DNA of 64,000 nt from Candidatus Thermodiscus eudorianus (GCA_015521085.1 WAOW01000004.1:186001-250000), one strand, 5' to 3'. Numbered from the stretch's first letter, positions 21,517 through 51,858 are shown. The notes: generated by a model from the letters alone, not told the origin. Made by a program: numbers and translations.

Positions 21517-22092
21517 GTGTCGTGGACCGGGGACCCGAAGCGCGACATAGTCGATGTAATGAGGCTCATGTACGAGAGGGGGCTCGTCCAGGTCCGGGGA
21601 GGCAACGCCAGCATCTACGACAGAGGCTCCGGGATGGTCTACATGTCCCCCTCTGGAGTCCCCCGAACCCTAATGACCACGAGGGACGTCGCGGTGATGA
21701 GTATAGGAGGGTCCCTCCTCCGGGGGAAACCCACGAGTGAGTGGAGGATGCACCTAGCAGTATACGAGGCCAGCAGCGACGCGGTGGCAGTGGTACATGC
21801 GCACCCGCCGTCGCTCCTAGCCCTCAACTACCGGGGCAAGACGCCGGACCCCGACTACCTAACCGAGGTCAAGCTAAACGCGAGGTGCATAGCTCGGGTC
21901 CCCTACGCCACGCCGGGAACCCAGGAACTAGCCGACAAGGTAGGCGAGACAATAAGGAGCACCGGGTGCAACGCGCTTATACTCGACCGCCACGGAGCCC
22001 TAGTCTACTCGGACAAAACCATATACCACGCCCTAGACCTCCTAGAAGCGCTAGAAGACCTCTCAAGGATAATGCTACACCTAGACAAGTAA
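21517..22092 (+). CDS. Class II aldolase (fuculose-phosphate aldolase family)
   Basis: A 191-residue zinc-dependent class II aldolase/adducin-family protein. Metal-binding histidines are visible in VVHAHPPSLLAL and LILDRHGALVYS, and the phosphate-binding stretch is VQVRGGNASIYDRGSG followed by MSPSGVPR. In archaea this family includes L-fuculose-phosphate aldolase-like enzymes used in sugar or nucleoside-pentose turnover and in methylthioribulose handling; the substrate here is unknown. GTG 21517 is preceded by GAGG. It is the last gene before the accessory region and does not overlap the next convergent gene. Confidence 0.87.
   Translation: MSWTGDPKRDIVDVMRLMYERGLVQVRGGNASIYDRGSGMVYMSPSGVPRTLMTTRDVAVMSIGGSLLRGKPTSEWRMHLAVYEASSDAVAVVHAHPPSLLALNYRGKTPDPDYLTEVKLNARCIARVPYATPGTQELADKVGETIRSTGCNALILDRHGALVYSDKTIYHALDLLEALEDLSRIMLHLDK
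21707..21717. repeat. GAGGGWCCCTC palindrome inside the aldolase gene
   Basis: GAGGGTCCCTC; the symmetry extends by two bases on each side (AGGAGGGTCCCTCCT, 21705-21719). Confidence 0.6.
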
Positions 22093-22765: not shown

Positions 22766-22776
22766 TGCTTATATAT
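22766..22776 (+). promoter_or_regulatory. TATA box of the receptor-kinase gene
   Basis: GCTTATATATT lies about 40 bases before TTG 22813 and would start the mRNA near 22797, giving a leader of about 15 bases that still contains CGGGGGT as ribosome site. The rest of 22645-22765 shows nothing I can name. Confidence 0.5.
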
Positions 22777-22812
22777 TGATTTAGGTATTGTGTTTTTACC
22801 CGGGGGTATAGT

Positions 22813-25638
22813 TTGGCTAGGCCAGGCAAGCCAGCCACGATCTTGCTACTAACGCTACTCACGGCTAGTATGCTGTTACCCGGCTCTGTGCATGTACTTG
22901 CATATCTGTCGATAACGCCGCCGACGTTAACGGAACTGTGGGAGAGGAGTCTAGGGGGCCTAGTTTCCAGTGTTTCCTGGGGTCCTGGTGTCGGCTTGGC
23001 TGTTGGAGCTAGTCATGCTGTGATTGTACTTAACGGTAATGGTAGTGTCTTGTGGGAGGGGAAGTTAGCCGAGGACGTATTAAGTGTCTCTTGGAGTCAT
23101 AATGGAGACAGACTGGTTGTTGGAGTAGGCTGGTTTAGCTGGTTAGGCAATAGCTCTATCACTAATAGCACTCATGGCCGCATTATCGTGTTCAGCAACA
23201 CTAGCAAAAAGGTATGGCAGTCCATGGATTTATACGGCTATGTCTATAGCGTTTCCTGGAGCCCTAAAGACGACAGGCTAGCTGTTGGAGCCGGTTCTAG
23301 AATAATAGTCTTCAACAGCAGTGGTGGCGTCTTATGGGAGAAGAGCCTGGGCAGCAACGTCTCAAGCGTTTCCTGGAGCCCTAGCGGGGATAAACTCGTC
23401 GTTGGCGGCGACTTCAGAAAAATTGCTGTCTTCGATGTCAAAGGTAATCTTCTGTGGGAGAAGGGCACAGGAGGCAGGGTCTCAAGCGTTTCCTGGAGCC
23501 CTAGTAATAGCGAGATAGCGGCTAGTATTGGTAACAGGATTATCGTTTTCAACGCCGAAGGTGGAGTCTTGTGGGAGCAGAGTCTGGGTAGCAGCATTCG
23601 TAGTGTTTCTTGGAGTCCTGGCGGAGATATGCTAGCCGTCACCGCTGGAAACTACGCCATAGTCTTCGACAGTAGCGGTAACCTGCTGTGGAAGAGTAGA
23701 AATCTAGGCGGGTTGGCGGAAAGTATCTCCTGGAGCCCGGAGGGCAGTAAGTTAGTCGTCGGAGTTGATAACAGGGTTGTTGTTCTCTATGCCTCTTTCG
23801 GCGTCATCCAGGTCTCCGGGGTCCCCGGTAGTGTTGTGAGCGTATCGGGACCGGGTGGAAGCGGGGAATACAAGATACCAGGAAACCAGACACTAACACT
23901 ATACGCAACACCAGGAAACTACACGATAAACTACAAACTACCACAACCAAACAACTACATAGGTACAAGATCGCCATTTAGCGGATCGTTAAAGACTGAT
24001 GTCAAGCCCGGTAAGAGGCATGTAATCAATCTGCCTAGCTATGGTGACCTGCTTGCACGGCTTGAGTTGGCCGTTCCACCGTACAGTAGTGTGACGTTGG
24101 AGTCTGGGGCGGTTAAGAAGACGTTCTCCGCTGGAGGAGATGGGAAGCTGTTGCTGTGGCTGGATCCCGGGGCCTATAAGCTGACGGTAACCTACAAGGG
24201 GGCAACTGTGTCGAGGGATTTGAAGGTTTCGAAGGGCCAGTCGATAACCCTTAAGTTCGGGGAGCAGGACTTTGCCGCCCCCATAACCACTACGACAAGC
24301 AAGCCCACAACCAGCACGCAATCCCAGGCATCTGGAGCCACAATCCCACCAATAGCCACGACCACGTCACACACACTCTCGACGGCGACACCCGTAGAGA
24401 CGGCCGTCACGGTCGGGCCTACAACCACGATGGTGGCTAGAGGCGGCCTAGGAGGCTACACGCTCCTCCTAGGACTACTGGGGCTGGGAGGAGTCATGGC
24501 CGCTGTAATCCTGTTGAGGAGGAAGAGCGGTGGAGAGACGCTGCCTGGAGAGGCGCCTCCGCAAGCCCCACCACCGCCGCCTCCGCCAACGCCAGAGTCC
24601 GCTAGCAGCAGCCAGTCTGTCGAGACGGGTAGAGTGTCTCATACAGTTGATACCGTTGAGGGACCCTCCACGCCAGTAAAGACGCCAGCGTCCACCCCTG
24701 TGGGGGGCTTGAAGTCCGTGGCCAGCTTGCTTGGCCGAGAACTCCAGGGCTTTAAGAGCGTGGAATCCTGTAGGGGGAGTTATAGTGTGGTGCTACCCGA
24801 GTCGCTGGCGCCCCAGGGATTCGGCGGCAGCTGGGATTGTTGCAAGCTTGGTTGTGGTGGTTGGGGTTGTGCCTATCGCTGTAGGAGGAGCGGTGACTCT
24901 AGCGGGGAGTATGTTGTGTTCAAGGTGCCCCGCGGCTTGGAGGCTTTGATCGAGGAGGGCAGCTTCCTAACTATAGATGAGAGGTTGTTGAGGCGCGTTG
25001 TCAACGAGGCGAGCGTCGTCTCAAGGCTCAAGCATCCCCATGTACTGCGCCTCCTGGCTTATGGCGAGAAGCTCCCGCTCCTGGTCTACGAGTACGCCGA
25101 CATGGGTAGTTTGGACCAGCAGTTCGCCCTCGGCTGGAGCCCCAGCCTCAGGGACTCGGTGCTCGCCGCGTTGCAGCTTGGCGATGCTCTCCGCTATATC
25201 CACTCTCGGGGGCTGGTGCATGGGGACATCAAGCCCGGGAACATATTCGTTAGGGATGGTGTCGTCAAGCTTGGGGACTTCAGTAGCCTGGTGAGGCTCG
25301 TCACTATGACCAGCCGACACGCCCTCAGCTACACCCCCGGCTTCCGGGCTCCCGAGCAGGTGTTCAGCGACTTGAAGCTCCGCGCTGTCAGGGCTGGGCT
25401 TGAGAACAGGATAGACGTCTACCAGCTCGGGAATCTCCTGCTCTACATGATTTCGGGGGAGACTATTGACGGGGAGGAGGCGGCTGACGCTAGCAGGGTG
25501 GAGGAGGTGTTGCGTGGCGTGGAGCATCCCGTGCTCAGGGAGTTGCTTAGGAGGATGCTCTCGCTGGAGCCAGAGGAGAGGCCTAACATGGAGTATGTAG
25601 TGGTCAAGCTCTATGAGGTGTATGAGGGCCTCGGATAG
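22813..25638 (+). CDS. Transmembrane receptor Ser/Thr protein kinase with extracellular seven-bladed propeller
   Basis: A 941-residue membrane receptor kinase. Residues 1-30 are a signal sequence. Residues 40-335 hold seven repeats of about 40 residues with SVSWSPxGxxLVVG...IIVF...GxxLW, a WD40-like propeller. A beta-sandwich-like part (335-480) and a Thr/Ser-rich stalk (480-545) follow. The membrane helix is near 546-568, then comes a Pro-rich cytoplasmic linker. The kinase domain (about 670-941) is complete: glycine loop LGCGGWGCAY, VAIK-like YVVFKVP, helix C Glu in VVNEAS, catalytic loop LVHGDIKPGNIFV (HGD in place of HRD), KLGDFSS, and APE in FRAPEQ. It should therefore be active. It is the first gene of the 22.8-31.7 kb island and probably phosphorylates products of that island. 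Confidence 0.93.
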   Translation: MARPGKPATILLLTLLTASMLLPGSVHVLAYLSITPPTLTELWERSLGGLVSSVSWGPGVGLAVGASHAVIVLNGNGSVLWEGKLAEDVLSVSWSHNGDRLVVGVGWFSWLGNSSITNSTHGRIIVFSNTSKKVWQSMDLYGYVYSVSWSPKDDRLAVGAGSRIIVFNSSGGVLWEKSLGSNVSSVSWSPSGDKLVVGGDFRKIAVFDVKGNLLWEKGTGGRVSSVSWSPSNSEIAASIGNRIIVFNAEGGVLWEQSLGSSIRSVSWSPGGDMLAVTAGNYAIVFDSSGNLLWKSRNLGGLAESISWSPEGSKLVVGVDNRVVVLYASFGVIQVSGVPGSVVSVSGPGGSGEYKIPGNQTLTLYATPGNYTINYKLPQPNNYIGTRSPFSGSLKTDVKPGKRHVINLPSYGDLLARLELAVPPYSSVTLESGAVKKTFSAGGDGKLLLWLDPGAYKLTVTYKGATVSRDLKVSKGQSITLKFGEQDFAAPITTTTSKPTTSTQSQASGATIPPIATTTSHTLSTATPVETAVTVGPTTTMVARGGLGGYTLLLGLLGLGGVMAAVILLRRKSGGETLPGEAPPQAPPPPPPPTPESASSSQSVETGRVSHTVDTVEGPSTPVKTPASTPVGGLKSVASLLGRELQGFKSVESCRGSYSVVLPESLAPQGFGGSWDCCKLGCGGWGCAYRCRRSGDSSGEYVVFKVPRGLEALIEEGSFLTIDERLLRRVVNEASVVSRLKHPHVLRLLAYGEKLPLLVYEYADMGSLDQQFALGWSPSLRDSVLAALQLGDALRYIHSRGLVHGDIKPGNIFVRDGVVKLGDFSSLVRLVTMTSRHALSYTPGFRAPEQVFSDLKLRAVRAGLENRIDVYQLGNLLLYMISGETIDGEEAADASRVEEVLRGVEHPVLRELLRRMLSLEPEERPNMEYVVVKLYEVYEGLG
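23248..23503 (+). repeat. Intragenic nucleotide repeat in propeller blades 3-5
   Basis: The 19-base sequence AGCGTTTCCTGGAGCCCTA occurs identically at 23248, 23365 and 23485, about one blade (117-120 bases) apart. Neighbouring blades have the same protein pattern but more diverged DNA. This suggests recent duplication or conversion among blades. Confidence 0.75.
24658..24668. repeat. GAGGGWCCCTC palindrome inside the kinase gene
   Basis: GAGGGACCCTC in the stretch encoding the Pro/Ser-rich linker between membrane helix and kinase domain. Confidence 0.6.
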
Positions 25639-25810: not shown

Positions 25811-26344
25811 GTGGGTTTGTACTTGTTGATCGTCCGGTACGGCGGGGAGGCTGAGAGGAAGCGCCTGGAGTACGTGCTCGAACGCTTCAAGGATAGGGTT
25901 AAGACAGTCAAGCCCGGCGGGTCCGTGGTCCTAATCGACGGTGATCGTGAGGATGTTAAATTTTTATTAGAGGAATTGTTTTCCAGGCTACCCAGGGAGA
26001 ACGTGGCCTTGTACAAGCTGAGCGAGCCCGACGTAGAGGTCGAGGAGAGGCGCCGGGTCCTAGAGGTCGAGACCCGGAGCCCGGTGGAGGAGGTCTGGGG
26101 GGCTATCAGCTTGATCATGGCCAGGCTCAAGGGGAGCCTGGTCAGCGAGGTCCGCGGTAGCCGCGAGTACGTTGTCAGGCCCCGCGGCGGCTATGCGCGC
26201 GTCAAGATACACGTTTCTCCTGTTAGCGGGGGCGGTAGCCTCGTCCGTGTAGTCGTTGAGGGTTATGGGAGTGGGTTTGACCGGGTGGTTTCTGGCCTTG
26301 TAGATGAGTTGGGCTTGCTGGGGGTTGTGAGGCGTGTCGAGTAG
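25811..26344 (+). CDS. Island protein of unknown function, two small domains
   Basis: A 177-residue soluble protein. The first 75 residues form an alternating helix/strand unit (LYLLIVRYGGEAERKRLEYV, VVLIDGDREDVKFLLEEL). The last 95 residues run as helix, then strands (SREYVVRPRGGYARVKIHVS, GGGSLVRVVVEGYG), then a final helix. The order resembles a START/SRPBCC-like helix-grip fold, but only at pattern level. GTG 25811 and TTG 25817 are both possible starts. Its end overlaps the start of the 599-residue gene by 11 bases, so the two are coupled. An adaptor or ligand-binding role next to the kinase is an inference. Confidence 0.7.
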   Translation: MGLYLLIVRYGGEAERKRLEYVLERFKDRVKTVKPGGSVVLIDGDREDVKFLLEELFSRLPRENVALYKLSEPDVEVEERRRVLEVETRSPVEEVWGAISLIMARLKGSLVSEVRGSREYVVRPRGGYARVKIHVSPVSGGGSLVRVVVEGYGSGFDRVVSGLVDELGLLGVVRRVE

Positions 26345-28133
26345 TGGTGGCTGTGATCGGGAGTCTATCCTTGGCTTGGTGGATGTGATCCTACGGGAGG
26401 ATCTGGAGGGCCTGGCCCGCGGGTATAGTTTTGATGAGAGGCTGGAGTTTTGGAACGACTTGAAGGCCCAGTACAACCAGTACATTAGGGGGTGCGCGGC
26501 GCGGTTTAGCAGGGAGATTGACAGGCTTATACGTGGCAAGTTTAGGCTCGCGCAGTTGATGATCGCGGCCAGCTTCAAGGTTAATGGCGAGGAGCTCCCG
26601 GAGGTTACTGGTAGGTTCTCCGACGAGGAGTACCAGGTTTTGTTCGATCTTGAGGAATTGAAGGAGCTCGACTTCCTCAGCGTTGACGACCTGGTCGAGT
26701 TCATCGAGAGGAGGGAGGGGAAGGTGTATGAGATGGTCAAGAAGTACTATGAGAGGGGCTATCACATGCTCGACACGAAGTGGACCAACATCATGGGGGC
26801 CCTGGCCCTTGCTATGGCTGAGCGCTACAAGGAGAGGAGGCTCAAGATAGAGGAGGCGGTGGTTAAGTACATCAGGAAGAAGCCCCTCACCATATTCATA
26901 AGCGAGATAGAGGAGGCCGTGAAGAAGGCCCTCGAAGCGGGGGAGGCGAGGAGAGAGGCCTCCCAGACCATCGAGAAGATAGCGGGCGAGATAGACAAGA
27001 TAGAGCCGGTAATCGCGGGTAGCGGGGGCATAGAGGAGGCCATAGAATCCAGGGAGAAAGCCCTCACAATGATCGAGAAGCTCCTCAAGGAGCTAGACGA
27101 GACCAGGGGCAAGCTGAGGGAGAAGGAGGCCGAGCTGGAGAGGCTAGCAAGCCAATACACCGAGTCATCCAGCGCCAGGGAGATAGTCGAGGCAGAACTC
27201 GAAGCCCTGAAAGGCCGGGTACGCGAGCTCGAAGCCCTACTAGAAGAGTACAAGGCCGCCGTCGCCACGCTCAAGGCCGAGAAGGAGGCCCTAGCCGAGA
27301 GGCTGGAGGAGTTGAAGGCGGGCCTCGAAGGCAGGGGCGGGGGCAACCTGGTCAGCAGGGAGGAGGCATGGGCGCTGGAGAACGCGCTGGTGGAGCGGAT
27401 AGTAAGGAAGCTGGCCGAGGGAGCAGTGGTCTATGACCCCGTGAGGGGCGAGTCCCGCGAGGTGAAATGGAACAGGAGGGTCTACTACAGCCTCCACGGC
27501 GACGGCAAGCCCCAGGGCAGGGGAGTACAACTCCAGTCCCTCAGGGGCGTCTTCAAGAAGAGGAAGGAGCTGGTGGTAGACGCGGTGACGCTAGTCCATA
27601 GGGACTCCTTCGACGAGAAGGGGTGGGACCAGGAGCCCGTCGGGCTAGGAGAGGTCATGGAGGTGGTCGAGTCCAGGCTGGAGGAGGCCGGCCGGGGCGG
27701 CTACTACCATATACTGGTGTTGAGTAGCCCCACCGGCTTCACTGAGAAGGCCAGGATGTTCGTTGAGAGCAACGACTACCTGGTAAACCTAGCCTCCAGG
27801 CACGTGACAGTCTACCTAGTAGACCCCGTCAAGGGCCAGCTCTACTACAATTCCAGGGACGAGGCGGCCGAGGCCAACAAGCACCTAGCAGACCCCAGGC
27901 TGCCCGAGGAGAGGGTGAAGAGGGTGCTGGAATACCTGAGGTCGGAGGAGGCCAAGGAGAAGGCCGTGCTGATCGGGGGCGGCTCGCCATTCCTACTGGC
28001 AGAGGATATAGCCAAGGCCACCGGCGAGGACCTGGAGATAGTGGCCAGGGCCATGGCCAGGGCCGAGGAGGAGGGGCTGGGCCGGGTGATGGTGACTAGC
28101 GACGGGCTGAAGGCCCTCTTCTACAAGCACTAG
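26334..28133 (+). CDS. Large coiled-coil island protein with an unrecognised C-terminal domain
   Basis: A 599-residue cytoplasmic protein I cannot place in a family. Residues 1-210 are helical with an acidic middle (FSDEEYQVLFDLEELKELDF). Residues 215-340 form a long charged coiled coil with heptads (LLKELDETRGKLREKEAELE). Residues 350-530 are an alpha/beta domain containing YYHILVLSSPTGFTEKARMF and HVTVYLVDPVKGQLYYN, which could be Rossmann-like or nuclease-like but shows no sure catalytic motif. The last 60 residues resemble a winged helix (FLLAEDIAKATGEDLEIVAR). GTG 26334 follows GTGAGGC. Its place between the kinase and the ESCRT-like genes suggests a scaffold. Confidence 0.75.
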   Translation: MSSSGGCDRESILGLVDVILREDLEGLARGYSFDERLEFWNDLKAQYNQYIRGCAARFSREIDRLIRGKFRLAQLMIAASFKVNGEELPEVTGRFSDEEYQVLFDLEELKELDFLSVDDLVEFIERREGKVYEMVKKYYERGYHMLDTKWTNIMGALALAMAERYKERRLKIEEAVVKYIRKKPLTIFISEIEEAVKKALEAGEARREASQTIEKIAGEIDKIEPVIAGSGGIEEAIESREKALTMIEKLLKELDETRGKLREKEAELERLASQYTESSSAREIVEAELEALKGRVRELEALLEEYKAAVATLKAEKEALAERLEELKAGLEGRGGGNLVSREEAWALENALVERIVRKLAEGAVVYDPVRGESREVKWNRRVYYSLHGDGKPQGRGVQLQSLRGVFKKRKELVVDAVTLVHRDSFDEKGWDQEPVGLGEVMEVVESRLEEAGRGGYYHILVLSSPTGFTEKARMFVESNDYLVNLASRHVTVYLVDPVKGQLYYNSRDEAAEANKHLADPRLPEERVKRVLEYLRSEEAKEKAVLIGGGSPFLLAEDIAKATGEDLEIVARAMARAEEEGLGRVMVTSDGLKALFYKH

Positions 28134-28144
28134 CGGGGGTGGGT

Positions 28145-28711
28145 ATGGTGTCGAGGCTCGGGGACCTGGACACGAGGGACCTCCTGGAGAAGGCCTATGA
28201 GAGGCTACTACCAGCGCTAGGCTACCTCCACAGCAGTCCAGCCGGCTTCGCAGCCAGCGTGATAGTATTCGCCACATGGGTCTACAGGAGGAGCGCCTCC
28301 GACAAGAAGAGGGCAGCCGTAGAGCTCGACAGGGACTATGAGAGGCTCGTGAAGCTACAGGCCAGGATAAGGGAGCTGGAGGAGAGGAGGAGGCTCCTCC
28401 AGAGGCTCCTGGAGAAGGTCGAGGGCGAGAGGGACAGGCAGAGGATTGAGAGACAGCTAAAGCTGGTTGAGGCCGAGCTGGATGGGCTATACGAGGAGTA
28501 CGACCTCCTGGAGCTGAGGATAGCGGCTGTGGAGAAGCTGGTGAGGCTCAAGGAGGAGGGAGTCATCAAGAAGATCAAGGACGTGCTCGACGAGATAGAA
28601 GAGGGCAAGGCCGACAAGGCCCTCTACGACGTGCTACGCGCCCTAGAAGAGAGGTGGAGGAAGAGGGAGCTAACCCGGAACGTGCTGGAGAGGATAATAG
28701 AGGAGGGCTAG
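28145..28711 (+). CDS. Membrane-associated ESCRT-III-like helical protein
   Basis: A 188-residue protein. A short hydrophobic segment (GFAASVIVFATWVYRR, about residues 32-47) could sit in or on the membrane. The rest is a charged helical body (ELEERRRLLQRLLEKVEGER, then a second long helix) ending in LVRLKEEGVIKKIKDVLDEI and further helices. The body parallels the protein encoded at 28827 segment by segment, including an LxRLK...G[VI]xxKIK[DN]V core. This long hairpin plus short helices is the ESCRT-III/CdvB plan. No direct sequence match is claimed. ATG 28145 is used; GTG 28151 also has a good ribosome site. Confidence 0.7.
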   Translation: MVSRLGDLDTRDLLEKAYERLLPALGYLHSSPAGFAASVIVFATWVYRRSASDKKRAAVELDRDYERLVKLQARIRELEERRRLLQRLLEKVEGERDRQRIERQLKLVEAELDGLYEEYDLLELRIAAVEKLVRLKEEGVIKKIKDVLDEIEEGKADKALYDVLRALEERWRKRELTRNVLERIIEEG

Positions 28712-28826: not shown

Positions 28827-29447
28827 ATGGATATCGGGGGTAAGATTAGGGGCTTCATCCGCCGTGGGGACTGGATTGACAAGGTGAAGGTCGAGGAGCT
28901 TGAGAGGGAGCTGATCAAGCTGGACAACCAGATTAGCTTGGCGAGCAAGGAGATCCAGAAGCTTGAGAAGGCGAAGAAGGAGCTCTTCCAGGAGGGCGTC
29001 GGTAAGAGTGACGTGGAGAAGCTGCTCCTGGCCGAGAAGATAAAGGATCTAGACGCCGAGATCAAGATGAAGCTCCGCGAGTACAATAGGTTAATGAAGC
29101 AGAGGAGGGCCCTGTCAAACCTGATCAGGCTGAAGAAGTGGGAGGCTAGGCTCAAGGAGACCGGTATATGGGAGAAGATCAAGAACGTGGAGCCCGAGAA
29201 ACTAATGGAAGCCCTCTCCAACGTGCAGTTCGAGGACCAGATGTTCGAGACCAACATAGACAAGATAAACGAGATACTAGGTAGGGAGGCGACCCAGATA
29301 GAGGTAGACGAGGGCACCAAGGAGATACTGGAGCTGTGGGAGAAGGTGGAGAAGAGCGAGCTGTCACCAGAGGTCGTCGAGGAAGAGCTGTCGGTGAAGC
29401 TGGAGCCGGAGGAAGAGAAGAAGGAGAAGGAGAAAGAAACCCTCTAG
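28827..29447 (+). CDS. ESCRT-III/CdvB-like helical protein
   Basis: A 206-residue soluble protein with a basic N-terminus (GGKIRGFIRRGDWIDKVK), a long helical hairpin (about residues 22-105), short helices containing LIRLKKWEARLKETGIWEKI, and a later acidic part. The order matches Snf7/CdvB proteins: basic helix 1, long helix 2, short helices 3-4, acidic tail. The tail ends in the highly charged EPEEEKKEKEKETL, where CdvB proteins usually carry an MIT-interacting motif. The AAA gene with an MIT-like domain follows directly. These facts together support an ESCRT-III-like polymer subunit acting at the membrane; none alone is proof. A strong ribosome site (GGGAGGTG) precedes ATG 28827. Confidence 0.7.
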   Translation: MDIGGKIRGFIRRGDWIDKVKVEELERELIKLDNQISLASKEIQKLEKAKKELFQEGVGKSDVEKLLLAEKIKDLDAEIKMKLREYNRLMKQRRALSNLIRLKKWEARLKETGIWEKIKNVEPEKLMEALSNVQFEDQMFETNIDKINEILGREATQIEVDEGTKEILELWEKVEKSELSPEVVEEELSVKLEPEEEKKEKEKETL

Positions 29448-29505: not shown

Positions 29506-30771
29506 ATGACTAGCGTGGATAAGGGGTGGGGGACCTTATCACACATAGACACGACGGGATTCCTAAACCAGGAGATAAAAAAGGCCAAGAAGCGGATGGA
29601 GGCAGCGCTAGCCAAGGGAGACTACTACACCGCGTCAATACAGGCCAAACGAGTATCAGAACTACTACGAGAGCTAGCCAAGGCCAGGAAATGGGGTCAA
29701 AAAGACCTACTGAGACTAGCAGAAGAATACAGCCAGCTAGCCAAGAGGCTATCCCAGGGAGAACCCCCAGCCAAGCCCATACCAAGGATACCAGCAAGCC
29801 AGCAGCCCACGAAGCCAACCCAAACACCGAGCCCCAAGCCCCAGGCCACGGGGGAGATCGAGGCCCTGGACTCAGAGTTCGACAAGCAGGCCGAGGCCCT
29901 AATAGCTAGAGCCGACATCACATGGGACGACATAGCCGGGCTTGAGGAGGTCAAGAGGAGCCTCGTAGAAGCGATATTCTACAGCATAGCCAGGCCCGAG
30001 GACCCCGGTGTTAGGGTGGAGCCCCCCAGGAGGTTCCTACTCTACGGGCCCCCCGGCACAGGGAAGACCATGCTGGCCATGGCTGCGAGCAACATGCTAG
30101 GCGCCACCTTCATAAACGTCAGCGTTGACAAGGTGCTTTCAAGGTATGTAGGCGACGCCCCCAGGATGATTAGCGCCGTCTTCAGGCTCGCCGTGAGGAG
30201 GGCTCCCAGCATAGTGTTCTTCGACGAGGTCGAGACCCTCATGATGAAGAGGGACACGGGCAAGGAGGCTGCCACAGGCCTAGTCCAAACCCTACTAACA
30301 GAGCTGGACGGCTTCAAAACCAAGAAGCTAGACAAGCCGGTCATAGTCATCGCTGCGACCAACAAGCCCTGGCTACTAGACGAGGCGATACTATCAAGGT
30401 TTGAGAAGAGGATATACGTGCCCCCACCCGACAAGAAGGCGAGAGAAGCAATATTCAGGCTAAACCTGGAGAAGAAGGGGTTCAAGCTGGAAGGGATAAC
30501 CTACGAGGAACTAGCCGACAGGACCGAAGGCTACAGCGGGAGGGACATAGCAAACGCCTGTAGGGAGGCGATAATGATGATGCTGAGGAGGGCCAACCCC
30601 GACATATACAAGCAACTCACAATGATAAAAGACCCGTCCAAGCTCAAAGACGTACGATACAAGATACTACCGATAAAGAGGGAGGAAATACTACAAGCAC
30701 TAGAAAAAGTGAAACCACCGATAACCCCGGAGGAGCTAGAGAAATACAGGGAATGGGCCCGGCAACACTAG
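29506..30771 (+). CDS. Vps4/CdvC-like AAA ATPase with N-terminal MIT-like domain
   Basis: A 421-residue AAA ATPase of the meiotic clade that in cells disassembles ESCRT-III polymers. Residues 17-85 form a three-helix MIT-like unit (AALAKGDYYTASIQAKRVSE and LLRLAEEYSQLAKRLSQG). A Pro/Thr-rich linker (87-112) joins it to the AAA domain, which opens with ITWDDIAGLEEVKRSLVEAI. Walker A is GPPGTGKT near residue 180, Walker B IVFFDEVETL near 237, and the second region of homology follows (AATNKPWLLDEAILSRFEKR). The C-terminal small domain and final helix are present. It is not beside cdvA/cdvB genes but next to two ESCRT-III-like genes, so it is probably a paralogue devoted to this island. Confidence 0.9.
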   Translation: MTSVDKGWGTLSHIDTTGFLNQEIKKAKKRMEAALAKGDYYTASIQAKRVSELLRELAKARKWGQKDLLRLAEEYSQLAKRLSQGEPPAKPIPRIPASQQPTKPTQTPSPKPQATGEIEALDSEFDKQAEALIARADITWDDIAGLEEVKRSLVEAIFYSIARPEDPGVRVEPPRRFLLYGPPGTGKTMLAMAASNMLGATFINVSVDKVLSRYVGDAPRMISAVFRLAVRRAPSIVFFDEVETLMMKRDTGKEAATGLVQTLLTELDGFKTKKLDKPVIVIAATNKPWLLDEAILSRFEKRIYVPPPDKKAREAIFRLNLEKKGFKLEGITYEELADRTEGYSGRDIANACREAIMMMLRRANPDIYKQLTMIKDPSKLKDVRYKILPIKREEILQALEKVKPPITPEELEKYREWARQH

Positions 30772-30792: not shown

Positions 30793-31746
30793 ATGGGGAT
30801 GAAGGAGATAATACTCCTATGGCAAGCCAAAGACAAGCTACACCAATACAAGCTAAAGCCAGGCAAAACCTACTACATAGGAAGACCCACAATGGAAACA
30901 CTACAACGACACCCAGACCTATCCCCATTCGGAGTCTACATAATACCAGAAGACCCAGACGAGAAACCACACTACACGGGATACGACACAACACTAGTCT
31001 CCCGCCTAGACACGCGGATAGCAATAACCAGGGAAGGTGACAAGATTAAGATAAAAAACCACGGCCCCAAGGGCACGGGAGCCAAAAACCCTACAATCAT
31101 AAACAACCAAATACTAGCCCCAGGAGAAGAAAAAGAGATAACACTAGACGACACGGGCAACATAAGCCTAGAACTAACAAGCCAGGGCCCAACATTCACA
31201 ATAGCAGTACGGGAACAAGAAAGAACCAAGATGAGGCTCGAAACGGGGACACCGATAACCCTGCCAAAGACGCTGGCGGAACAGTTGGTGAAGAGGGGAC
31301 TGGTGAAGGAGGCGGTAGACCTGGGAGACACCATGGAGATAGTGATAAAACCCGAAGCCGGGGACAGCCTCCTAATAGAGCTACTATCAGAACTACTAGG
31401 CACCCTAAGGATAGTAAAGACATCAATGGAGAAAATAGCCCAACAACCATCCAAGGAGAAACAAAGGGAAAAACAGAAACAGGGGCTCCAGAGGATAGAC
31501 ATGATACTATCAGACATATACATGACCCTAGACAGGGACCCGGGACAAGCACAAATCCAATTCCAAAGGCTAGAGAAGATAAAAGAATACGGAGAACTCA
31601 TAGAAAACCTAGGAGAACAAGCCAAAACCACCTACGAAAGCCTCAGAATGCTAATGCACTGGTCAGTGCAATCCCATAAGGAGGAGATAAAACAACAAAT
31701 AATACTACTAAGAGAGATCATAAAGGAAAAGATACAACTACAATAG
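30793..31746 (+). CDS. FHA-domain protein with C-terminal coiled coil
   Basis: A 317-residue soluble protein. Residues 1-130 have the FHA pattern: a first strand, then YYIGRP (the GR motif), a loop of 35 residues, LVSRLDTRIAI (the SR motif that binds phosphothreonine; the usual following His is Asp here), KIKIKNHGPKGTG and IINNQILAPGEEKEI. FHA domains bind phosphothreonine, so this is the natural reader for the kinase encoded at 22813. Residues 130-180 form an insert with TPITLPKTLAEQLVKRGLV. Residues 185-317 are helical and probably coiled coil. The codons are rich in A (CTA, ATA, AAA), unlike the first island genes. It lies 21 bases after the AAA gene, so they are cotranscribed. Confidence 0.8.
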   Translation: MGMKEIILLWQAKDKLHQYKLKPGKTYYIGRPTMETLQRHPDLSPFGVYIIPEDPDEKPHYTGYDTTLVSRLDTRIAITREGDKIKIKNHGPKGTGAKNPTIINNQILAPGEEKEITLDDTGNISLELTSQGPTFTIAVREQERTKMRLETGTPITLPKTLAEQLVKRGLVKEAVDLGDTMEIVIKPEAGDSLLIELLSELLGTLRIVKTSMEKIAQQPSKEKQREKQKQGLQRIDMILSDIYMTLDRDPGQAQIQFQRLEKIKEYGELIENLGEQAKTTYESLRMLMHWSVQSHKEEIKQQIILLREIIKEKIQLQ

Positions 31747-32266: not shown

Positions 32267-33163
32267 TTATGGTATGTTGCATTCTCGGGTTGTGTCTGCC
32301 TTGTGTATTTTTGTTTTGGCTAGGTATTCTATTAGTTCTTCTATTATTTTCTTGGTGTTGGATGCTACGATTACTAGGTCGTATGGGCGTTTTCCTCTCC
32401 TCTCCTCCTCTATCCTTTCCTTGATCTCGTCTCCGCGTTCTGCTTCGTGTCGTGGAGTGTAGTATACTACCACAAATTTTGTGTCTGGGCGGCATTCTAT
32501 TATTTCGTCGAGTTCAGAGCTGAATTCCTTGGCCCTCTTTATCAAATCCATGCGGACACCAGTCCTGATCTGGATAGCAACTTTTAGATTGTCAGGGTCT
32601 GGTGGGATTGCGCAGTCGATCTCCCGGGTTTTGTTGTTGCATGTGATCTTGATTTTCCCGGCTGGTATGCCGCATTTGTTTAGGATGTTTATTATTTCTT
32701 TTTCGATTTTCTTTCCCCTGTAGTGTCTTTTCTGGTGTTCCTCCCAGTTTTTATAGAACTTGTAGAGGACTGTCTCCATGTGTAACGGGTGTTTTAGGTT
32801 TTCCATGACGGCTTCTATGAACTTGTCTAGTTTGTCTTGGTCGATTTCTCTTCTCAGGCTGTAGACGTTCTTCAGCCCGTAGAGCCTGTCGAGTTCTCTG
32901 ACGCTGAATCCGCATATCATCATGAAGAAGGGAATCATTACGTGGGGGTTCCTCTTTATCATTGTTTCTATGTCTGTCTTCGTTGCTTTATCGAATCTTA
33001 CTAGTAGAGTGTCTTTGTCGAATAAGTTGGAGGTTGCTAGTATTTTTCCTATTCTGAGTGTCATCTCGTCGAGCTCGTTGTAGAGTATTGGTAGCTCGGC
33101 GTAGTTTGGGCGTGGGATCTTGGCTAGTATCGATTTAACCAGGTCTTCGTGCTCGTTCTTCAA
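32267..33163 (-). CDS. Putative restriction endonuclease of a type II system
   Basis: A 298-residue protein encoded directly behind an adenine methyltransferase; its TTG start overlaps the methyltransferase stop by 4 bases. N-terminal 150 residues are helical. The middle has the order of a PD-(D/E)xK nuclease: a helix (GKKIEKEIINILNKCGIPAG), strand KIKITCNN, TREIDCAIPP, then VAIQIRTG. The third motif would be QxR rather than ExK, a known kind of variation that makes activity less sure. A later strand KFVVVYYTP and helix-strand-helix follow. Identity as the cognate endonuclease is inferred from position. The codons are richer in T and A than in the core genes, in keeping with transfer. Confidence 0.65.
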   Translation of the reverse strand: MKNEHEDLVKSILAKIPRPNYAELPILYNELDEMTLRIGKILATSNLFDKDTLLVRFDKATKTDIETMIKRNPHVMIPFFMMICGFSVRELDRLYGLKNVYSLRREIDQDKLDKFIEAVMENLKHPLHMETVLYKFYKNWEEHQKRHYRGKKIEKEIINILNKCGIPAGKIKITCNNKTREIDCAIPPDPDNLKVAIQIRTGVRMDLIKRAKEFSSELDEIIECRPDTKFVVVYYTPRHEAERGDEIKERIEEERRGKRPYDLVIVASNTKKIIEELIEYLAKTKIHKADTTRECNIP

Positions 33164-34608
33164 GGGCTTCTTCCCTCCACGTACCTGTAGAGTTTTCTGC
33201 TGGCTGTTGATTCTTCGTAGAGATTATCTGGTATGGGTAGTTTCCTTATGGTGTGGGATTGCATTCTTATGTAGCCGTTAGCGGCTTTCTGAGAGTGGCT
33301 TTGTATCCATTCCTTTACGTCGTTGCGTTTTAGGTATTCGAGTAGCTTGGGGATTGCCCCTGGGTTCTTGGGGACTAGGTAGTAGGTGTTGTGTCGTGGG
33401 ATTATGGTTCCGGTGAGGTCTGCGTAGAATACGGGTTCCTTGGCTAGGTCGGGCCATAGGATTTTTGGCTTGAGCAGGGTGTTCATGGGCGGGTCTTCGT
33501 GGAACGCGTACCACTTCTTACCCTTCTCCTGGACGGCCCTCCTCTCCATTAGTGTTTTCCTTTGGTTGGCTAGGTAGTCTAGTAGGGGTTTTGCCTGGGC
33601 CTCGTCGAGGAGCCTTCCGTCATCGTCATACGGCACTAGGATAATATTGGGTAGCTTTTCCGGGTCTATCGGGTTGAAGGGCTTGAACATGGCGAGCTCT
33701 CTGCCGCTGACTGAGGGGTACGCGTATCTCTCCAGGTTGCTGGGTAGCTTCTCCCGGGGGATTATGAAGACTTTGTCTCTGCCAGTCGCGATCCCCGGGC
33801 TTATCCTTACCGCGACCTCTTCTAGCCTGTGCCTATACTTCATTATCTCCCTGTTTTCTAGCTTGTGGAGTGCTATCGTTTCGAGCCAGGAGCTCCCGTC
33901 AACGGGTAGGTTTAGCGCGAGCCTGCTCCCGTCCCTGAGGATTATCCTCGTCTTCCCCTGGGTTTTTGATTTTTCTATGACCGTGATGACTGGGTAGGCT
34001 AGGATGCCGCCGAAGGCGTCCTCGTCGATGAACTCTATCTTGCATACGCATTGCCTTGCCAGTAGCCTGCGGAGCTCCCTGGCTGAGAGGGTGTAGAGGT
34101 ATTTCTCGGGGGTTACGAAGACCAGCCTGCCCCCGGGCTTGAGTAGCTCAAGTGCTTTCTCGAAGAAGAGCATGTAGAGGTCGAAGCGCCCCCGGGCGCT
34201 CCTAAACATGCGCCTATAGATCCTCCTCTTACCGGCATCCATTTTCTCGTAGGAGATGTATGGAGGGTTACCGATAACGTAGTCAAAGCGCCCCAGTGTC
34301 TCCGTGTCGAGTAGCAGGAAGTCCGCGTTGACGATCCTCACACTACCGTATCCGCTGAATGCTCTTGATGTAAGCCCGGCGAGCCCGGGATCAACCTCGA
34401 CACCAACAACCTCGGGCAACCCATACCCTCTAGACCTGCAATACTCTATAACCGCCCTGATGAAGACCCCACGGCCCGAGCCAGCATCCAACACCCTAGA
34501 CCCACGGCCAGGCGGCTTACCATGGAACAGCTCGGCGACCATCCTCCGGGCCAGCCAATAGGGCGTTTCAACCCTCCCCTCATACCCCCTTACAACGGCA
34601 CTCCCCAT
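33160..34608 (-). CDS. N6-adenine DNA methyltransferase
   Basis: A 482-residue gamma-type DNA methyltransferase, like M.TaqI. The SAM motif is VLDAGSGRGVFIRAVIEY, motif IV is YVIGNPPYISYEK (NPPY, methylates adenine N6), and LKPGGRLVFVTPEKYLY follows. The C-terminal 220 residues form a target-recognition domain (SGRELAMFKPF, RHNTYYLVPKNPGAIPKLLE). ATG 34608 is chosen because GGAGGT lies 11 bases upstream; GTG 34632 would lengthen it. A TATA-like GATATAAAC lies on this strand near 34730. It most likely protects against the endonuclease encoded next to it. Confidence 0.9.
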   Translation of the reverse strand: MGSAVVRGYEGRVETPYWLARRMVAELFHGKPPGRGSRVLDAGSGRGVFIRAVIEYCRSRGYGLPEVVGVEVDPGLAGLTSRAFSGYGSVRIVNADFLLLDTETLGRFDYVIGNPPYISYEKMDAGKRRIYRRMFRSARGRFDLYMLFFEKALELLKPGGRLVFVTPEKYLYTLSARELRRLLARQCVCKIEFIDEDAFGGILAYPVITVIEKSKTQGKTRIILRDGSRLALNLPVDGSSWLETIALHKLENREIMKYRHRLEEVAVRISPGIATGRDKVFIIPREKLPSNLERYAYPSVSGRELAMFKPFNPIDPEKLPNIILVPYDDDGRLLDEAQAKPLLDYLANQRKTLMERRAVQEKGKKWYAFHEDPPMNTLLKPKILWPDLAKEPVFYADLTGTIIPRHNTYYLVPKNPGAIPKLLEYLKRNDVKEWIQSHSQKAANGYIRMQSHTIRKLPIPDNLYEESTASRKLYRYVEGRSP

Positions 34609-34632
34609 AGCCCTCCAAACCTCCACTCTCAC

Positions 34633-41126: not shown

Positions 41127-44100
41127 TTGAATAAAAAACCCCTCAAGGCAATCCTCGCACTCCTACTAATAGGCATGTTCATAATACCAGCAGGATCCGC
41201 ATTAGCCAACACAAGCACAGGAGGACAAGTCAAAGCCACAGCAAGCCTGCCAGAAGACCTAAAAGGCATTCTATCAAAATACGGAATCAACCTACCCGAC
41301 GAGGCTGTAAAGGTCCTATCGGGAGGCGACAGCGTGAAAATCAACAATAGAGGAGTATACCTTAACAGGCACTACATAGGACAGGACAAAGAGCTACAGC
41401 CAATCCGCACGCCTGATCTAACCGCTAGGGCTCCAGAGACCTATAGGGCGAAAATACTCCTGCCGACAGGAGACACTGCAATTGTAAACTACAACGAGAA
41501 GGACGGGTTTACCGTCAACATCAAGGGAGACCACAGGATAGCCAGGGAATACTACCTAGCCTCGCTGCCAAACCACGTATACCTGATCCCAGCCGGGATC
41601 GACATGAAGAAACTCGACATTAACTTATTCGACATAAAGTACCTAGCCGAGAACGACTACGGCCAAGAGATCCCAGTGATACTAAAGTACAAGGCCCCAG
41701 GCAACGACCCAGACACTATAAAGGCGATGGGCGACGCGATAGCCAACACCCTAAGATCGATGGGAATAGAGGTGAGACACGTCTACAAGCTCATCCCAGC
41801 AATAAGCCTAACCCTAAACAAGGACAACGCAGCAGACTTCCTAAAATGGGCCGAGAGTAATCCCAGCGTAGAGAAAATCTACCTAGACGCCAAGGTAAAG
41901 GTAAACCTCAACGATAGCGTGCCACTAATCGGAGCCCCAGAGGCGTGGAACCTAGGCTTCAATGGCTCCGGGGTAAACATAGCGATACTAGACACCGGGG
42001 TCGACTGGACCCACCCTATGCTAGACGACTTCGACAACGACCCCACGACGAATGACACGAAGGTCATAGTCAAGAAGAGCTTCGTCGAGTACCCAAGCTC
42101 CGAGGCCAACGACCCAATGGACTACATCGGCCACGGAACCCACGTGGCGTCGACAGCGGCTGGCACTATATGGAACGCGACGGTACCCGACTCTGGCGGG
42201 ATAAGGACTCTGATCAACGCAACCTACGACACCCCTGTATACTCAAATCTAACACTATACTTAGAGGATCTAGAGGAGAACGACGAGATATACTATGTTT
42301 ATGAGTTCGTAGTCGTTGGAAGCAGCGACGGGCGACTATACAACTACACTGGAGAGTCAAACCACGTGATCGGATCCGCCCTAAACAGCACCTTCGCATA
42401 CGATGCCGACGGAGACAACCAGACAGACCTCTTCAAGCACATCTACATATGGGCGTTCTCAAGCGATGACGACACGCTAGCGGCACTGCTAACAGGGTTT
42501 AACACGAACACAGGCAAGAACGACGTCCTAGTGGGCTATGATCACCTCGGCCCAGGCGTGGCCCCAGGGGCATACATATGGGCCGTAAAGGTCCTCAACA
42601 AATACGGCTGGGGCTATACCTCATGGATCATAAACGGCATAGAATTCGCCGCCCTAGGACCAGACGGCACTCCAAACACCGGCGACGAGGCCGATATAAT
42701 CAGCATGAGCCTCGGCGCCGATATACCAAGCGACGGCACAGACCCGCTAAGCTTAGCAGTAGACTACGCATCAAGCCTAGGAGTAACCGTTGTAGTAGCC
42801 GCTGGCAACGCCGGGCCAGGATACGGGACAGTCGGAATACCAGCATCTGCCAGATCAGCCATAACTGTGGGAGCGGTAGACAAAAGCCTAACGCTAGCCT
42901 GGTTCAGTAGCCAGGGCCCGACCCTCGATATGAGGATTAAGCCCACCGTGGTAGCCCCTGGCGTCAATATACTCGCTGCACTACCCGGTAACAGCTGCGC
43001 TGCACTATCCGGTACTAGTATGGCTACTCCGCACGTCTCAGGGAGCGCGGCACTACTAATACAAGCCTACAAACAGAAATACAACATGACGCCAACGCCA
43101 CAACAAGTCAAAGACCTACTAGCATTGACTGCCATGGATCTAGGATATGATGTATTCCACCAGGGCCTGGGGCTCGTGCAGGTCCCAGACGCTATAAACG
43201 CGTCACTCATAGTAGACCCCGTGACGAGCAACTACATTGGAACGCCCGGAGACCTTGTCAACATGACCTTCACGATAACAAACCTGGCATCGGCCAGCAA
43301 GAACCTCACCGTAACAGTGCTCGTAGAGGACTTCTTGGCCTCTACAGTAGTGGCTTCAACCAGCAGCCAGTTAATGCTCGGTCCGCTGAACTCGACCCCG
43401 TACAACGTGTTATTGAACACTACTGGATTCAGCAAGGGCCTCTACATCCTATACCTAACTGTACACGATGATACAGAAAACAAGACGTACCGGGCTCTAG
43501 CCTCCATAGCGCTATTGAACAAGGTGGTAGTCAACCTGTACTACGATGACGGGTCTCCTGGCAGCTACGAGGAGGTAATCCTCTTCAAAGACAGCTATAC
43601 CAGCCCGGTTGAAGCGTCGCTATTCCTCGGGCTAAGGCTCTCAAACGAGAACGGCACCCTAGTGCTATACCTGCCAGACGGCTTGTTCCACCTCATATGG
43701 ATACCCTGGGATACATACGAGCCAACATACGTCGTGGCTGATGTTAGCGTGAGCAACGATACTGTAGTGGACATGTATGAGAACTCCACGATGCCGTTAA
43801 CCTTCGACGCCGGCTTCACGGCCAAGTACCTGGAGGACTTCTACCTCATAGGGAAGAGCGACATAACTATCGGAAACTATACGGGCTCCATCAGCATAGG
43901 CCACCTAGGCTATCTAGACGAGACGACCAGCCCGCCCGTAGTCTACGTGACGCCAACCCAGCTTGAGAGCGTGTGGAGGGTCAAGTACGTACCCGGCAAC
44001 GAAGATGCTGCGTCTGCGAGCACGTTCTACGATATAATAACGCCGCTAGACCAGACCCTCACCCCAATAACAATACAGCCAGACTATAACACGACCGCCT

Positions 44101-46850: not shown

Positions 46851-46959
46851 CTTTATTTAACACAACACCTATTCTTTTTTACATACTTAGGGAACAGTTA
46901 AACCTATAATTCAGGTTTTAATAATGATACATGGGCATCACACTACCCGGGTGCACGAG

Positions 46960-47697
46960 ATGAACACGAAAACACTAAAGACGACGGTGATAATCCTACT
47001 CGCAATCCTCTCGATCCAACACGCCCTAACAGCCACATCACAATACGCCCCGCCAATACCGCCGGAGTCAATAGTAGAACACCACACAACCGTATCATAC
47101 TCCAGCGCTGAAGCCGAGGAGAAGGTGGAGATAAACGTCTCGAAGTTCGACCCAGAGCAGCCGGTCAAGAAGATAGAGATGGGGTTCAAGAAGCCGGTCA
47201 AGACCGTGCAACTCGACCTCTACGTGCTCAAAAGCCTACCACCAGCACTACCAACCATAGAAGGAGTCAAGCCCGTATCCATAGTAGCTATAGTGGCCAA
47301 GGAGGAGGTAATCAACCTAGCCACACAGTCAAAGCTAGTCATAGAGGTCAAACAGAAGCTATCGCCCCAGTCGCTAGTCGTATACGTGTGGAACGGCCAC
47401 GAGTGGGTTGAAGTCAGGCCAGACGTCGTCAGGGCCGAGGCCGGCAAGACTATAGTGGAGGTCGGGGTGCCGGGCATAGCCAACTACCTAGTAGTCGGCG
47501 TGAAGACAGCTCCAGTAACCACCACGACAACTACAACCACCGGAACTGCAACCACTACCACCGCAGCAGCGACCACTACCACCACGACAACCGGGAAGCC
47601 CGCGAAGCCCAGCAACGCGCTCAAGATAACGGCGGCCGTCGCCGTAGCGATAATAGTTATCCTAGTGGTAGCAGTCTACTTGAAGGGAAGAAAATAA
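46960..47697 (+). CDS. Surface protein with Thr-rich stalk and C-terminal membrane anchor
   Basis: A 245-residue protein. It has a signal peptide (LKTTVIILLAILSIQHALTA), a beta-rich ectodomain of about 130 residues with VVYVWNGHEWVEVRPDVV, a stalk of Thr tracts (about residues 185-220) and a membrane helix (ITAAVAVAIIVILVVAVYL) followed by KGRK. The ectodomain weakly resembles the PGF-pre-PGF type found on archaeal surface proteins. The Thr stalk is a likely O-glycosylation site, which fits the GT-C gene next to it. ATG 46960 is chosen because it leads straight into the signal peptide. Confidence 0.75.
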   Translation: MNTKTLKTTVIILLAILSIQHALTATSQYAPPIPPESIVEHHTTVSYSSAEAEEKVEINVSKFDPEQPVKKIEMGFKKPVKTVQLDLYVLKSLPPALPTIEGVKPVSIVAIVAKEEVINLATQSKLVIEVKQKLSPQSLVVYVWNGHEWVEVRPDVVRAEAGKTIVEVGVPGIANYLVVGVKTAPVTTTTTTTTGTATTTTAAATTTTTTTGKPAKPSNALKITAAVAVAIIVILVVAVYLKGRK

Positions 47698-47743
47698 ACC
47701 CCTCATCTTTCTCCAGCCTACAACCAGCTAGGTGGACCCACCT

Positions 47744-50658: not shown

Positions 50659-51858
50659 GTGGAGCGGCCTACAGCTCCACTCCTAATCCTCCTGTTAATA
50701 CTAGCAGGCACGATACTCCCTGTGGCGACAGCGGCCCCGCCAGAACCACCCCCAACCTGGATCCATGACCTCGGAGACTATGTGACCAGCGTTGATATGA
50801 GCGACGACGGCAAATTCGTTATAGTCGGGACCAGGCACGGCTTCCTCTTCCTATTCGATAGCGAGGGAAAAGAGATATGGAGAAAAGAGCTAGACATCCC
50901 AGTCGTGGATGTAGCCATTAGCCCCGACGGGAGGATCATAGCAGCATTAATGAATGAAACCGAGAACAGAGGCCGTCTATCCCTATATAGCTCTGACGGG
51001 GGAGAGATTGCGACGTGGATCCTCGACTCTCCGGGCACGGCTGTCGATGTAACACTAGTGGAGGGAGAAGCGTATTTCATTGGAGTTGGTCTACTTGATG
51101 GATCGGTGGTTATAACAGACACTACAGACATCTTATGGTATGAACGTATCCATAACGACGCGGTGCTTGACGTAGAATTCGAGCCGCGTGTAGCAATGCT
51201 GGCTACATGCTCAAGAGACGGTACAGTTGCCCTGGTAGATGTGACACGTAGAGATGTAGTCTGGAAGACTGACCTAGGCAGACCAGTCTTCAGCATAGAC
51301 TTCAACTCTGACGGCAAGTTCTTAGCAGCTGGCGTACCGGAAGGAGTGTATTTGTTGGATCCAGTGCATGGAGCCGTGATCTGGGATAACGGGGTCCACG
51401 GCCTTGTCGAGTCTGTCGCGCTGGGCACTGAGATAACGTATGCCGGCGGCAACGATTACTATAGTGGTCAAAGCGAGCTTAGAGCAACCGACTCGACGGG
51501 AAACACTATGTGGGCCATCCCATTTAAAGACGCCTTTATTAGGGCTCTCGACGTGTCCGATGACGACAGGTATATTGTAGTGGGCCTATCGAATGGCAGG
51601 ATATTCCTCTTCGACAATAATGGCAAGGATTTATGGGAGTATGACACTGTCGATGGCGCTGGCATCACGTCCCTGGCCCTAAACCCCACGGGTGACTACC
51701 TTGTTGTTGGTAGCGAGTCCGAGAAGAGTGACCTGATGTATTTCACGCCTGATCCGCCTCCGCCGGTGCCGGAGCCCTATTACGTGGGCGTGTTCATGCT
51801 GATTGTGCTACTCCTGGTGTATGTGTTCTATAAGAGGCGCGTGGCGGAGGCCTCCTAG
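50659..51858 (+). CDS. Membrane-anchored WD40/PQQ-like propeller protein
   Basis: A 399-residue surface protein. It has a signal peptide (LLILLLILAGTILPVATA), then about seven blades with the pattern VTSVDMSDDGKFVIVGTRHG...LFDSEGKEIW, and a C-terminal membrane helix (YVGVFMLIVLLLVYVFYKRR) with a very short cytoplasmic end. This is the same ectodomain-plus-anchor plan as the kinase at 22813, but with no kinase domain. It may bind a ligand or partner at the surface. GTG 50659 leads straight into the signal peptide; an AT-rich element lies 15-45 bases upstream. Its stop shares CTAG with the DUF445 gene. Confidence 0.8.
   Translation: MERPTAPLLILLLILAGTILPVATAAPPEPPPTWIHDLGDYVTSVDMSDDGKFVIVGTRHGFLFLFDSEGKEIWRKELDIPVVDVAISPDGRIIAALMNETENRGRLSLYSSDGGEIATWILDSPGTAVDVTLVEGEAYFIGVGLLDGSVVITDTTDILWYERIHNDAVLDVEFEPRVAMLATCSRDGTVALVDVTRRDVVWKTDLGRPVFSIDFNSDGKFLAAGVPEGVYLLDPVHGAVIWDNGVHGLVESVALGTEITYAGGNDYYSGQSELRATDSTGNTMWAIPFKDAFIRALDVSDDDRYIVVGLSNGRIFLFDNNGKDLWEYDTVDGAGITSLALNPTGDYLVVGSESEKSDLMYFTPDPPPPVPEPYYVGVFMLIVLLLVYVFYKRRVAEAS

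Follow-up and report, generated by a model that had tools for sequence, protein, structure and literature searches.

A predicted receptor kinase with an extracellular propeller adjoins a Main-type ESCRT-like gene cassette in Candidatus Thermodiscus eudorianus

A gene in the thermophilic archaeon Candidatus Thermodiscus eudorianus, here called K, codes for a protein whose layout recalls the receptor kinases of eukaryotes, with a WD40-like propeller that was originally predicted to lie outside the cell. On which side of the membrane would this propeller lie, is the kinase behind it likely to be active, and on which proteins might it act? We analysed a 64,000-nucleotide stretch of the genome containing K (the window), together with related loci from other genomes.

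Architecture and topology of the predicted receptor

The open reading frame of K comprises 941 codons plus a stop and begins with a TTG start codon; using a later ATG as the start would remove most of the signal peptide. Several Pfam models of WD40 propellers match residues 41-330, and an SxSWS repeat occurs seven times, beginning at residues 53, 91, 146, 185, 225, 264 and 304. An AlphaFold2 model built with 19 window and locus sequences reached a mean pLDDT of 80.6, with values mostly between 85 and 97 in the propeller and kinase blocks, 90-97 within the propeller, and low values in the signal peptide and at residues 491-631, the latter being disordered in the model. A single-sequence model of full-length K was discarded (pLDDT 51). 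By our reading of its strand list, the retained model contains seven four-stranded blades, with the ring closed by strand 40-46, followed by a β-sandwich at residues 330-482 and a kinase fold at residues 633-940. Comparison of the propeller alone with solved structures (VIA-align) matched residues 37-329 to seven-bladed propellers, the top match being a designed seven-blade protein (Z 43.2, rmsd 1.3, 275 residues); the WD40 domain of Thermomonospora curvata (5yzv) scored Z 41.9. Structure prediction of the ectodomain, which had been proposed as a check of the original prediction, thus produced the seven WD40-like blades and the β-sandwich that it had claimed, although the sandwich is a two-part fold rather than a single one. 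This module has a weak CarboxypepD_reg match (E 0.0014) and recurs in membrane proteins nearby. Hydropathy and composition agree with the predicted signal peptide, Thr-rich stalk, one membrane helix and Pro-rich linker, and the hydropathy profile contains a single strong membrane segment besides the N-terminal peak (Table 1). Elsewhere in the window, positions 50659-51858 code for a 399-aa protein related to the K ectodomain, with a signal peptide, a WD40/PQQ-type propeller and a C-terminal transmembrane (TM) segment and without a kinase.

A survey of homologues, also proposed at the outset, found 14 propeller-kinase fusions in the taxonomic order to which K belongs; seven have both a hydrophobic N-terminus and a TM segment in the linker and are thus membrane forms, while the seven soluble ones have neither. 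Since signal peptide and TM segment either co-occur or are both absent across the 14 fusions, K is very likely a receptor with an extracellular propeller. Its sequence is thereby consistent with the eukaryote-like receptor-kinase architecture that had been claimed, namely a signal peptide, an ectodomain, a single TM helix followed by RRK, and a kinase after the helix. Cysteines preceding the kinase number 0-1 in the membrane fusions and 4-10 in most soluble ones. N-glycosylation sequons in K number eight before the TM helix, against 4.5 expected, and zero after it, an excess that is not beyond chance (p 0.06). The kinase family of K appears to include cytoplasmic propeller-kinases as well, and the even split of the fusions therefore makes the extracellular propeller a variant within the family. 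While its predicted location is supported by the pairing of signal peptide and TM segment, it is less exceptional than first proposed, given these cytoplasmic kin and the bacterial precedent of PknD (PMC2877116). Two further loci, L112 (8464-10884) and L117 (1214-3699), hold apparent split receptors, in which a signal-peptide/propeller/TM protein stands beside a separate cysteine-loop kinase.

Table 1. Features of the kinase gene K, of the cassette downstream of it and of related loci (positions in the window unless a locus is named)
Feature	Positions	Strand	Basis
Putative TATA-box-like CTTATATATT, about 40 bases 5' of K	22768..22777	+	Read from the sequence
Receptor kinase gene K, 941 aa	22813..25638	+	ORF, Pfam, AlphaFold2
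K signal peptide, residues about 1-30, end SVHVLA	22813..22902	+	Hydropathy (KD) 1.85 at residue 8
K seven-bladed WD40 propeller, residues 38-329	22924..23799	+	Pfam, repeats, AlphaFold2, structure comparison
K two-part β-sandwich, residues 330-482	23800..24258	+	AlphaFold2 strands, pLDDT about 82-95
K Thr-rich stalk, residues 491-545	24283..24447	+	33% Thr over 491-550; pLDDT under 40
K transmembrane helix, residues 549-569, then RRK	24457..24519	+	KD 2.45 at residue 550
K Pro-rich disordered linker, residues 570-632	24520..24708	+	Proline 25% of 573-632; AlphaFold2
K Ser/Thr kinase domain, residues 633-935	24709..25617	+	PF00069 E 7e-26; AlphaFold2
CCKLGCGGWGCAYRC, Gly-rich loop with cysteines 676, 677, 681, 686, 690 (subfamily signature)	24838..24882	+	19-sequence alignment
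HGD catalytic loop (non-RD)	25219..25227	+	19/19 sequences
DFS in place of DFG	25276..25284	+	D and S in 19/19
Gene A, 177 aa; fits description of arCOG08177 (Cas2-like plus helix-grip)	25811..26344	+	Profile match, T. peptonophilus, E 4e-36
Gene B, 599 aa; fits description of arCOG09748	26334..28133	+	Profile match, T. peptonophilus, E 5e-70
Gene C, 190 aa, hydrophobic segment and coiled coil; distant relative of D	28139..28711	+	hhalign probability 84-86%
Gene D, 206 aa, helical; a divergent ESCRT-III candidate	28827..29447	+	Profile matches E 5e-39, 3e-26; weak CdvB similarity
Gene E, 421 aa, Vps4-type AAA ATPase with MIT-like N-terminus	29506..30771	+	Pfam, alignment to Vps4B, tree
Gene F, 317 aa, FHA-type plus helical tail; SxxH and NGT degenerate (SRLD, NPT)	30793..31746	+	Family profile
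Second locus type	L067 7413-13389; L075 6593-13067; L126 8816-14540		

The kinase domain matches PF00069 over residues 678-930 (91.5 bits, cut-off 31.7). This match and the modelled fold bear out the full Ser/Thr kinase of the original prediction, but not its start at residue 670, as the domain begins near residue 653. Every catalytic residue is present, as had been claimed: GxGxxG at 680-685, K704, E732, H803-G-D805, N810, D822-F-S824, E848, D868 and R923. In an alignment of 19 sequences all are invariant except E732 (13/19) and F823 (18/19). The replacements of HRD by HGD and of DFG by DFS had been noted from K alone; as they are invariant across the alignment, they are fixed signatures of an archaeal (crenarchaeal) kinase subfamily and not oddities of K. 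With HGD, K is a non-RD kinase, and known kinases with such forms can be active. K contains six cysteines, which the original prediction did not remark on, all of them in the N-lobe of the kinase: C681 and C686, inside the ATP-binding Gly-rich loop (LGCGGWGC), are invariant in the 19 sequences, and C653, C676, C677 and C690 are each found in 16. These six residues could possibly form a disulphide, metal or redox switch. The cysteine-loop subfamily occurs in 13 of 398 sampled Thermoproteota, and no description of it was found in the literature searched.

The gene cassette downstream of K and its relatives

Six genes, A to F, follow K on the same strand, at 172 bases from K and with gaps of -11, 5, 115, 58 and 21 bases among themselves. 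The 'island proteins' near K invoked in the original prediction thus exist as a gene set, which had not been recognised as a Main-type ESCRT cassette; nor had it been seen that K is the single gene matching PF00069 in a Pfam search of the genome. Because one Pkinase gene occurs among an estimated 1,600 or so genes, we estimate the chance of K adjoining the cassette at about one in a thousand. Genes A and B are candidate members of arCOG08177 and arCOG09748, going by the published descriptions and by homologues in the same order in a Thermococcus locus. B reads as a helical region, a coiled coil, a globular part and a C-terminal wH-like domain, and the MIT-like N-terminus of E was aligned to that of Vps4B. 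The family profile of F matches FHA chains, and a relative of F scores 1.9e-12 against PF00498; in F itself GR and S are kept, while H and G are absent from their usual places.

A cassette on a Thermococcus peptonophilus plasmid contains, in order, A, B, two proteins of about 200 aa, a Ser/Thr kinase (STK), Vps4, a PP2C phosphatase and a Snf7-like protein. It is found by the crenarchaeal profiles of A and B, and the D profile finds both of the ~200-aa proteins. A to F are homologous, with genes in order, to the Main-type ESCRT loci of euryarchaea, whose published descriptions list arCOG08177, arCOG09748 and a membrane STK/STP alongside Vps4 and ESCRT-III (PMC10936438, PMC11188069). In the island around K, nothing was recognised as equivalent to the Snf7-like Thermococcus gene. 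A tree of Vps4 proteins united E with Vps4 of other cassettes, Thermococcus, haloarchaea and Chlorohelix in one clade (100/98) and placed CdvC of the same genomes in a separate clade (100/99); few euryarchaeal sequences were taken in, so the tree leaves the Main and Halo subclades unseparated. Vps4 of the cassette thus has an ancestry separate from CdvC, which the K genome also encodes elsewhere together with CdvB. According to the survey of Makarova et al. 2024, TACK archaea kept only a reduced division ESCRT and lost the sorting type (PMC10936438). Among the genomes seen here the crenarchaeal cassette loci are an exception to this loss, although the 'several other archaea' of that survey may include some of them.

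Are C and D ESCRT-III proteins? D gave no significant match to Snf7, nor did a search of the island turn up a Snf7 gene. Aligned to CdvB by hhalign, D scored 30.7, against a shuffled maximum of 18.1 and a coiled-coil control of 21.8, with a probability of only 21%. Comparing D and C with CdvB, and the Snf7-like Thermococcus protein with CdvB and D, lent no firm support to an ESCRT-III link; searched by sequence against the PDB, D returned only coiled-coil noise, and A and B nothing useful. By their sequences, C and D are at most putative ESCRT-III proteins. The PP2C_2 model found no phosphatase in the K genome and six related genomes. We also considered conserved FHA-docking threonines in the cytoplasmic linker of K, an idea dropped because the linker differs between orthologues.

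An Acidilobaceae MAG of another genus (L057) has its genes in the same order, K-A-B-C-D-Vps4-FHA, with identities of 31% for the ectodomain, 52% for the kinase, and 66% (A), 70% (B), 58% (C), 87% (D), 80% (Vps4) and 49% (F) for the cassette, the ectodomain being the fastest-evolving module. Additional cassettes, full or broken, come from other members of the Acidilobaceae, from an Aeropyrum MAG, from other Desulfurococcales and from a genome of another family of the order (G084). Searching genome contigs with a profile from a 7-row B alignment recovered six loci, and strong D matches were found in 5 of 398 sampled Thermoproteota. Some cassettes stand without a kinase beside them, as in the Aeropyrum MAG, where the contig is short (L063), and relatives of the K kinase also occur in genomes in which no cassette was found. 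A second locus type carries B-C-D-FHA followed by a kinase with a signal peptide and TM segment that lacks the cysteine P-loop signature; without A or an adjacent Vps4, it possibly represents a second ESCRT-like signalling system in the same genomes. The system of K and its cassette goes unmentioned in a paper on archaeal dark-matter islands. In G084, the cassette genes (L073) and five of the ten Pkinase genes of the genome lie within about 28 kb. A plasmid of the Chloroflexota member Ca. Chlorohelix allophototropha (NZ_CP128401.1; L139, 1-4655) encodes a WD40-propeller kinase together with a D-like protein (E 1e-13) and a Vps4-like ATPase, the last of which groups with Main-type Vps4 on a long branch; the survey states that bacteria have no ESCRT homologues (PMC10936438).

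Compared with a same-genus genome (G177), gene order is kept up to an aldolase gene (21517-22092) and from a pyrF-like gene (35755) onward; other genes lie beyond both edges in G177, on separate contigs, and no cassette or kinase matches were found there. Given this arrangement, G177 does not serve as a decisive empty site. Together with the plasmid-borne relative, these edges indicate an accessory island spanning about 22.1-35.7 kb of the window, in which a type II-like DNA methylase gene is also found. The right side of this island (32267-34632) codes for the methylase, an Eco57I/type II-like N6 enzyme of 490 aa, and an adjacent 298-aa product without family matches. Further along the window (41127-50575), three genes in a row encode a subtilase of 1907 aa with right-handed beta-helix repeats, a Thr-rich stalk/TM protein of 257 aa and a membrane glycosyltransferase of the PMT_2 type with 947 aa.

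Proposed role, alternatives and known counterparts

We consider it probable that K acts as an outside-in sensor kinase and controls a second ESCRT-like system in the genome, one not used for division. The extracellular propeller and β-sandwich would bind a ligand or a surface partner, and the signal would cross the single TM helix to the kinase, which as a non-RD form should be active without activation-loop phosphorylation. On ligand binding, K would phosphorylate cassette or cargo proteins, the FHA protein F would read phosphothreonine, and Vps4 (E) would drive assembly or disassembly of C/D-type helical proteins, leading to cargo sorting or membrane budding. The position of K directly in front of ESCRT-like genes points to possible control of membrane remodelling by a signal from outside. 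To the architecture, topology signature, catalytic-residue conservation, gene order, homology with euryarchaeal Main-type loci and distinct ancestry of Vps4 and CdvC, the model adds ligand binding, substrates, phospho-reading and membrane output, which we infer.

The model is supported by the position of the single genomic Pkinase gene directly upstream on the same strand, the tight packing of A to F, the order repeated in L057, the T. peptonophilus plasmid, the Vps4 tree, the CdvB and CdvC encoded elsewhere, the TM kinase of the second locus type, the STKs published for Main and Halo_FHA loci and the fast evolution of the ectodomain. Against the model stand the lack of a significant Snf7 match, the low D-CdvB probability, the Snf7-like Thermococcus protein without a counterpart, kinases in genomes with no cassette found, cassettes without a kinase, the degraded FHA motif of F, and the failure to find PP2C_2. 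In a rival reading, K would still be a receptor kinase, but its link to the cassette would be purely positional, with its real targets elsewhere and the cassette working independently; the kinase relatives without a cassette, the cassettes without an adjacent kinase, the TATA-like box before K and the 172-base gap between K and A speak for it. We regard this as unlikely, as the genome yielded no Pkinase gene besides K, its gene order recurs in another genus, TM kinases flank the cassettes of the second locus type, and membrane STKs are reported from euryarchaeal ESCRT loci.

The island might instead serve in defence, the propeller sensing a virus at the surface while the kinase and the ESCRT-like proteins keep it from entering or leaving or target the infected cell itself. 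The patchy distribution of D, the related cassette on the Thermococcus plasmid, the methylase gene adjoining the island and the missing island between conserved blocks in same-genus relatives would fit such a role, but PADLOC matched K and Vps4 to generic kinase and AAA models and A, C, D and F to none, and the cassette has no recognisable effector nuclease or toxin; we think this explanation improbable. Finally, with the HRD arginine and DFG glycine replaced, cysteines in the loop and an αC glutamate that varies among the 19 sequences, K could be a pseudokinase or scaffold that binds without phosphate transfer. The invariance of K704, D805, N810, D822 and E848 in 19 diverse members and the compatibility of HGD, as a non-RD form, with activity in known kinases make this highly improbable.

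Returning to K as a regulator of the cassette, a fuller reading, which we put forward tentatively, is that of an outside-in pathway of TACK archaea, in which an extracellular WD40 receptor kinase, possibly redox- or metal-tuned through its cysteine ATP loop, acts as the switch of a dedicated ESCRT system apart from division. If true, prokaryotes would have a counterpart to membrane trafficking under receptor control, in a lineage thought to have lost this ESCRT type. With a Main-type cassette and its own Vps4 beside CdvB and CdvC, some Acidilobaceae and relatives carry both systems. Could this be a small, testable system for signal-controlled ESCRT remodelling outside eukaryotes and Asgard archaea? 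As a single Pkinase gene was found in the genome, mapping of kinase to substrate should be unusually clean.

Among known systems, the Cdv (CdvABC) division ESCRT of TACK archaea resembles the cassette in having a Vps4-type ATPase with an MIT-like N-terminus, as in E, but its CdvC falls in a separate clade and is encoded with CdvB elsewhere in the genome. The PkwA-type WD40 kinase of T. curvata has, like K, a seven-blade WD40 propeller joined to a Ser/Thr kinase (5yzv for the WD40 domain, Z 41.9), C-terminal rather than N-terminal as in K, and belongs to another organism and context; to our knowledge, it has not been reported as a secreted ectodomain. The propeller of PknD of Mycobacterium tuberculosis is six-bladed and C-terminal to the kinase, and no ESCRT cassette accompanies it. 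Like K, PknD is a kinase with an extracellular beta-propeller sensor (PMC2877116). As described in the survey, Halo_FHA loci combine an FHA protein with Vps4, helical proteins and an STK, as in the K island, but are haloarchaeal, and their FHA protein carries a CdvA-like domain; membrane STKs and cargo that is phosphorylated have been connected with both these and the Main loci (PMC10936438, PMC11188069). Also described there is the Main-clade STK of euryarchaea, like K a membrane-associated Ser/Thr kinase encoded with A-like, B-like and helical proteins and a Main-type Vps4 in the same order (PMC10936438). These kinases combine an N-terminal TM segment with Ig-like repeats and a C-terminus resembling PCI, and PP2C often accompanies them, whereas K has its kinase C-terminal behind an extracellular propeller, its gene upstream of A and a TACK host, in a locus without the Snf7-like gene and a genome in which PP2C_2 was not found.
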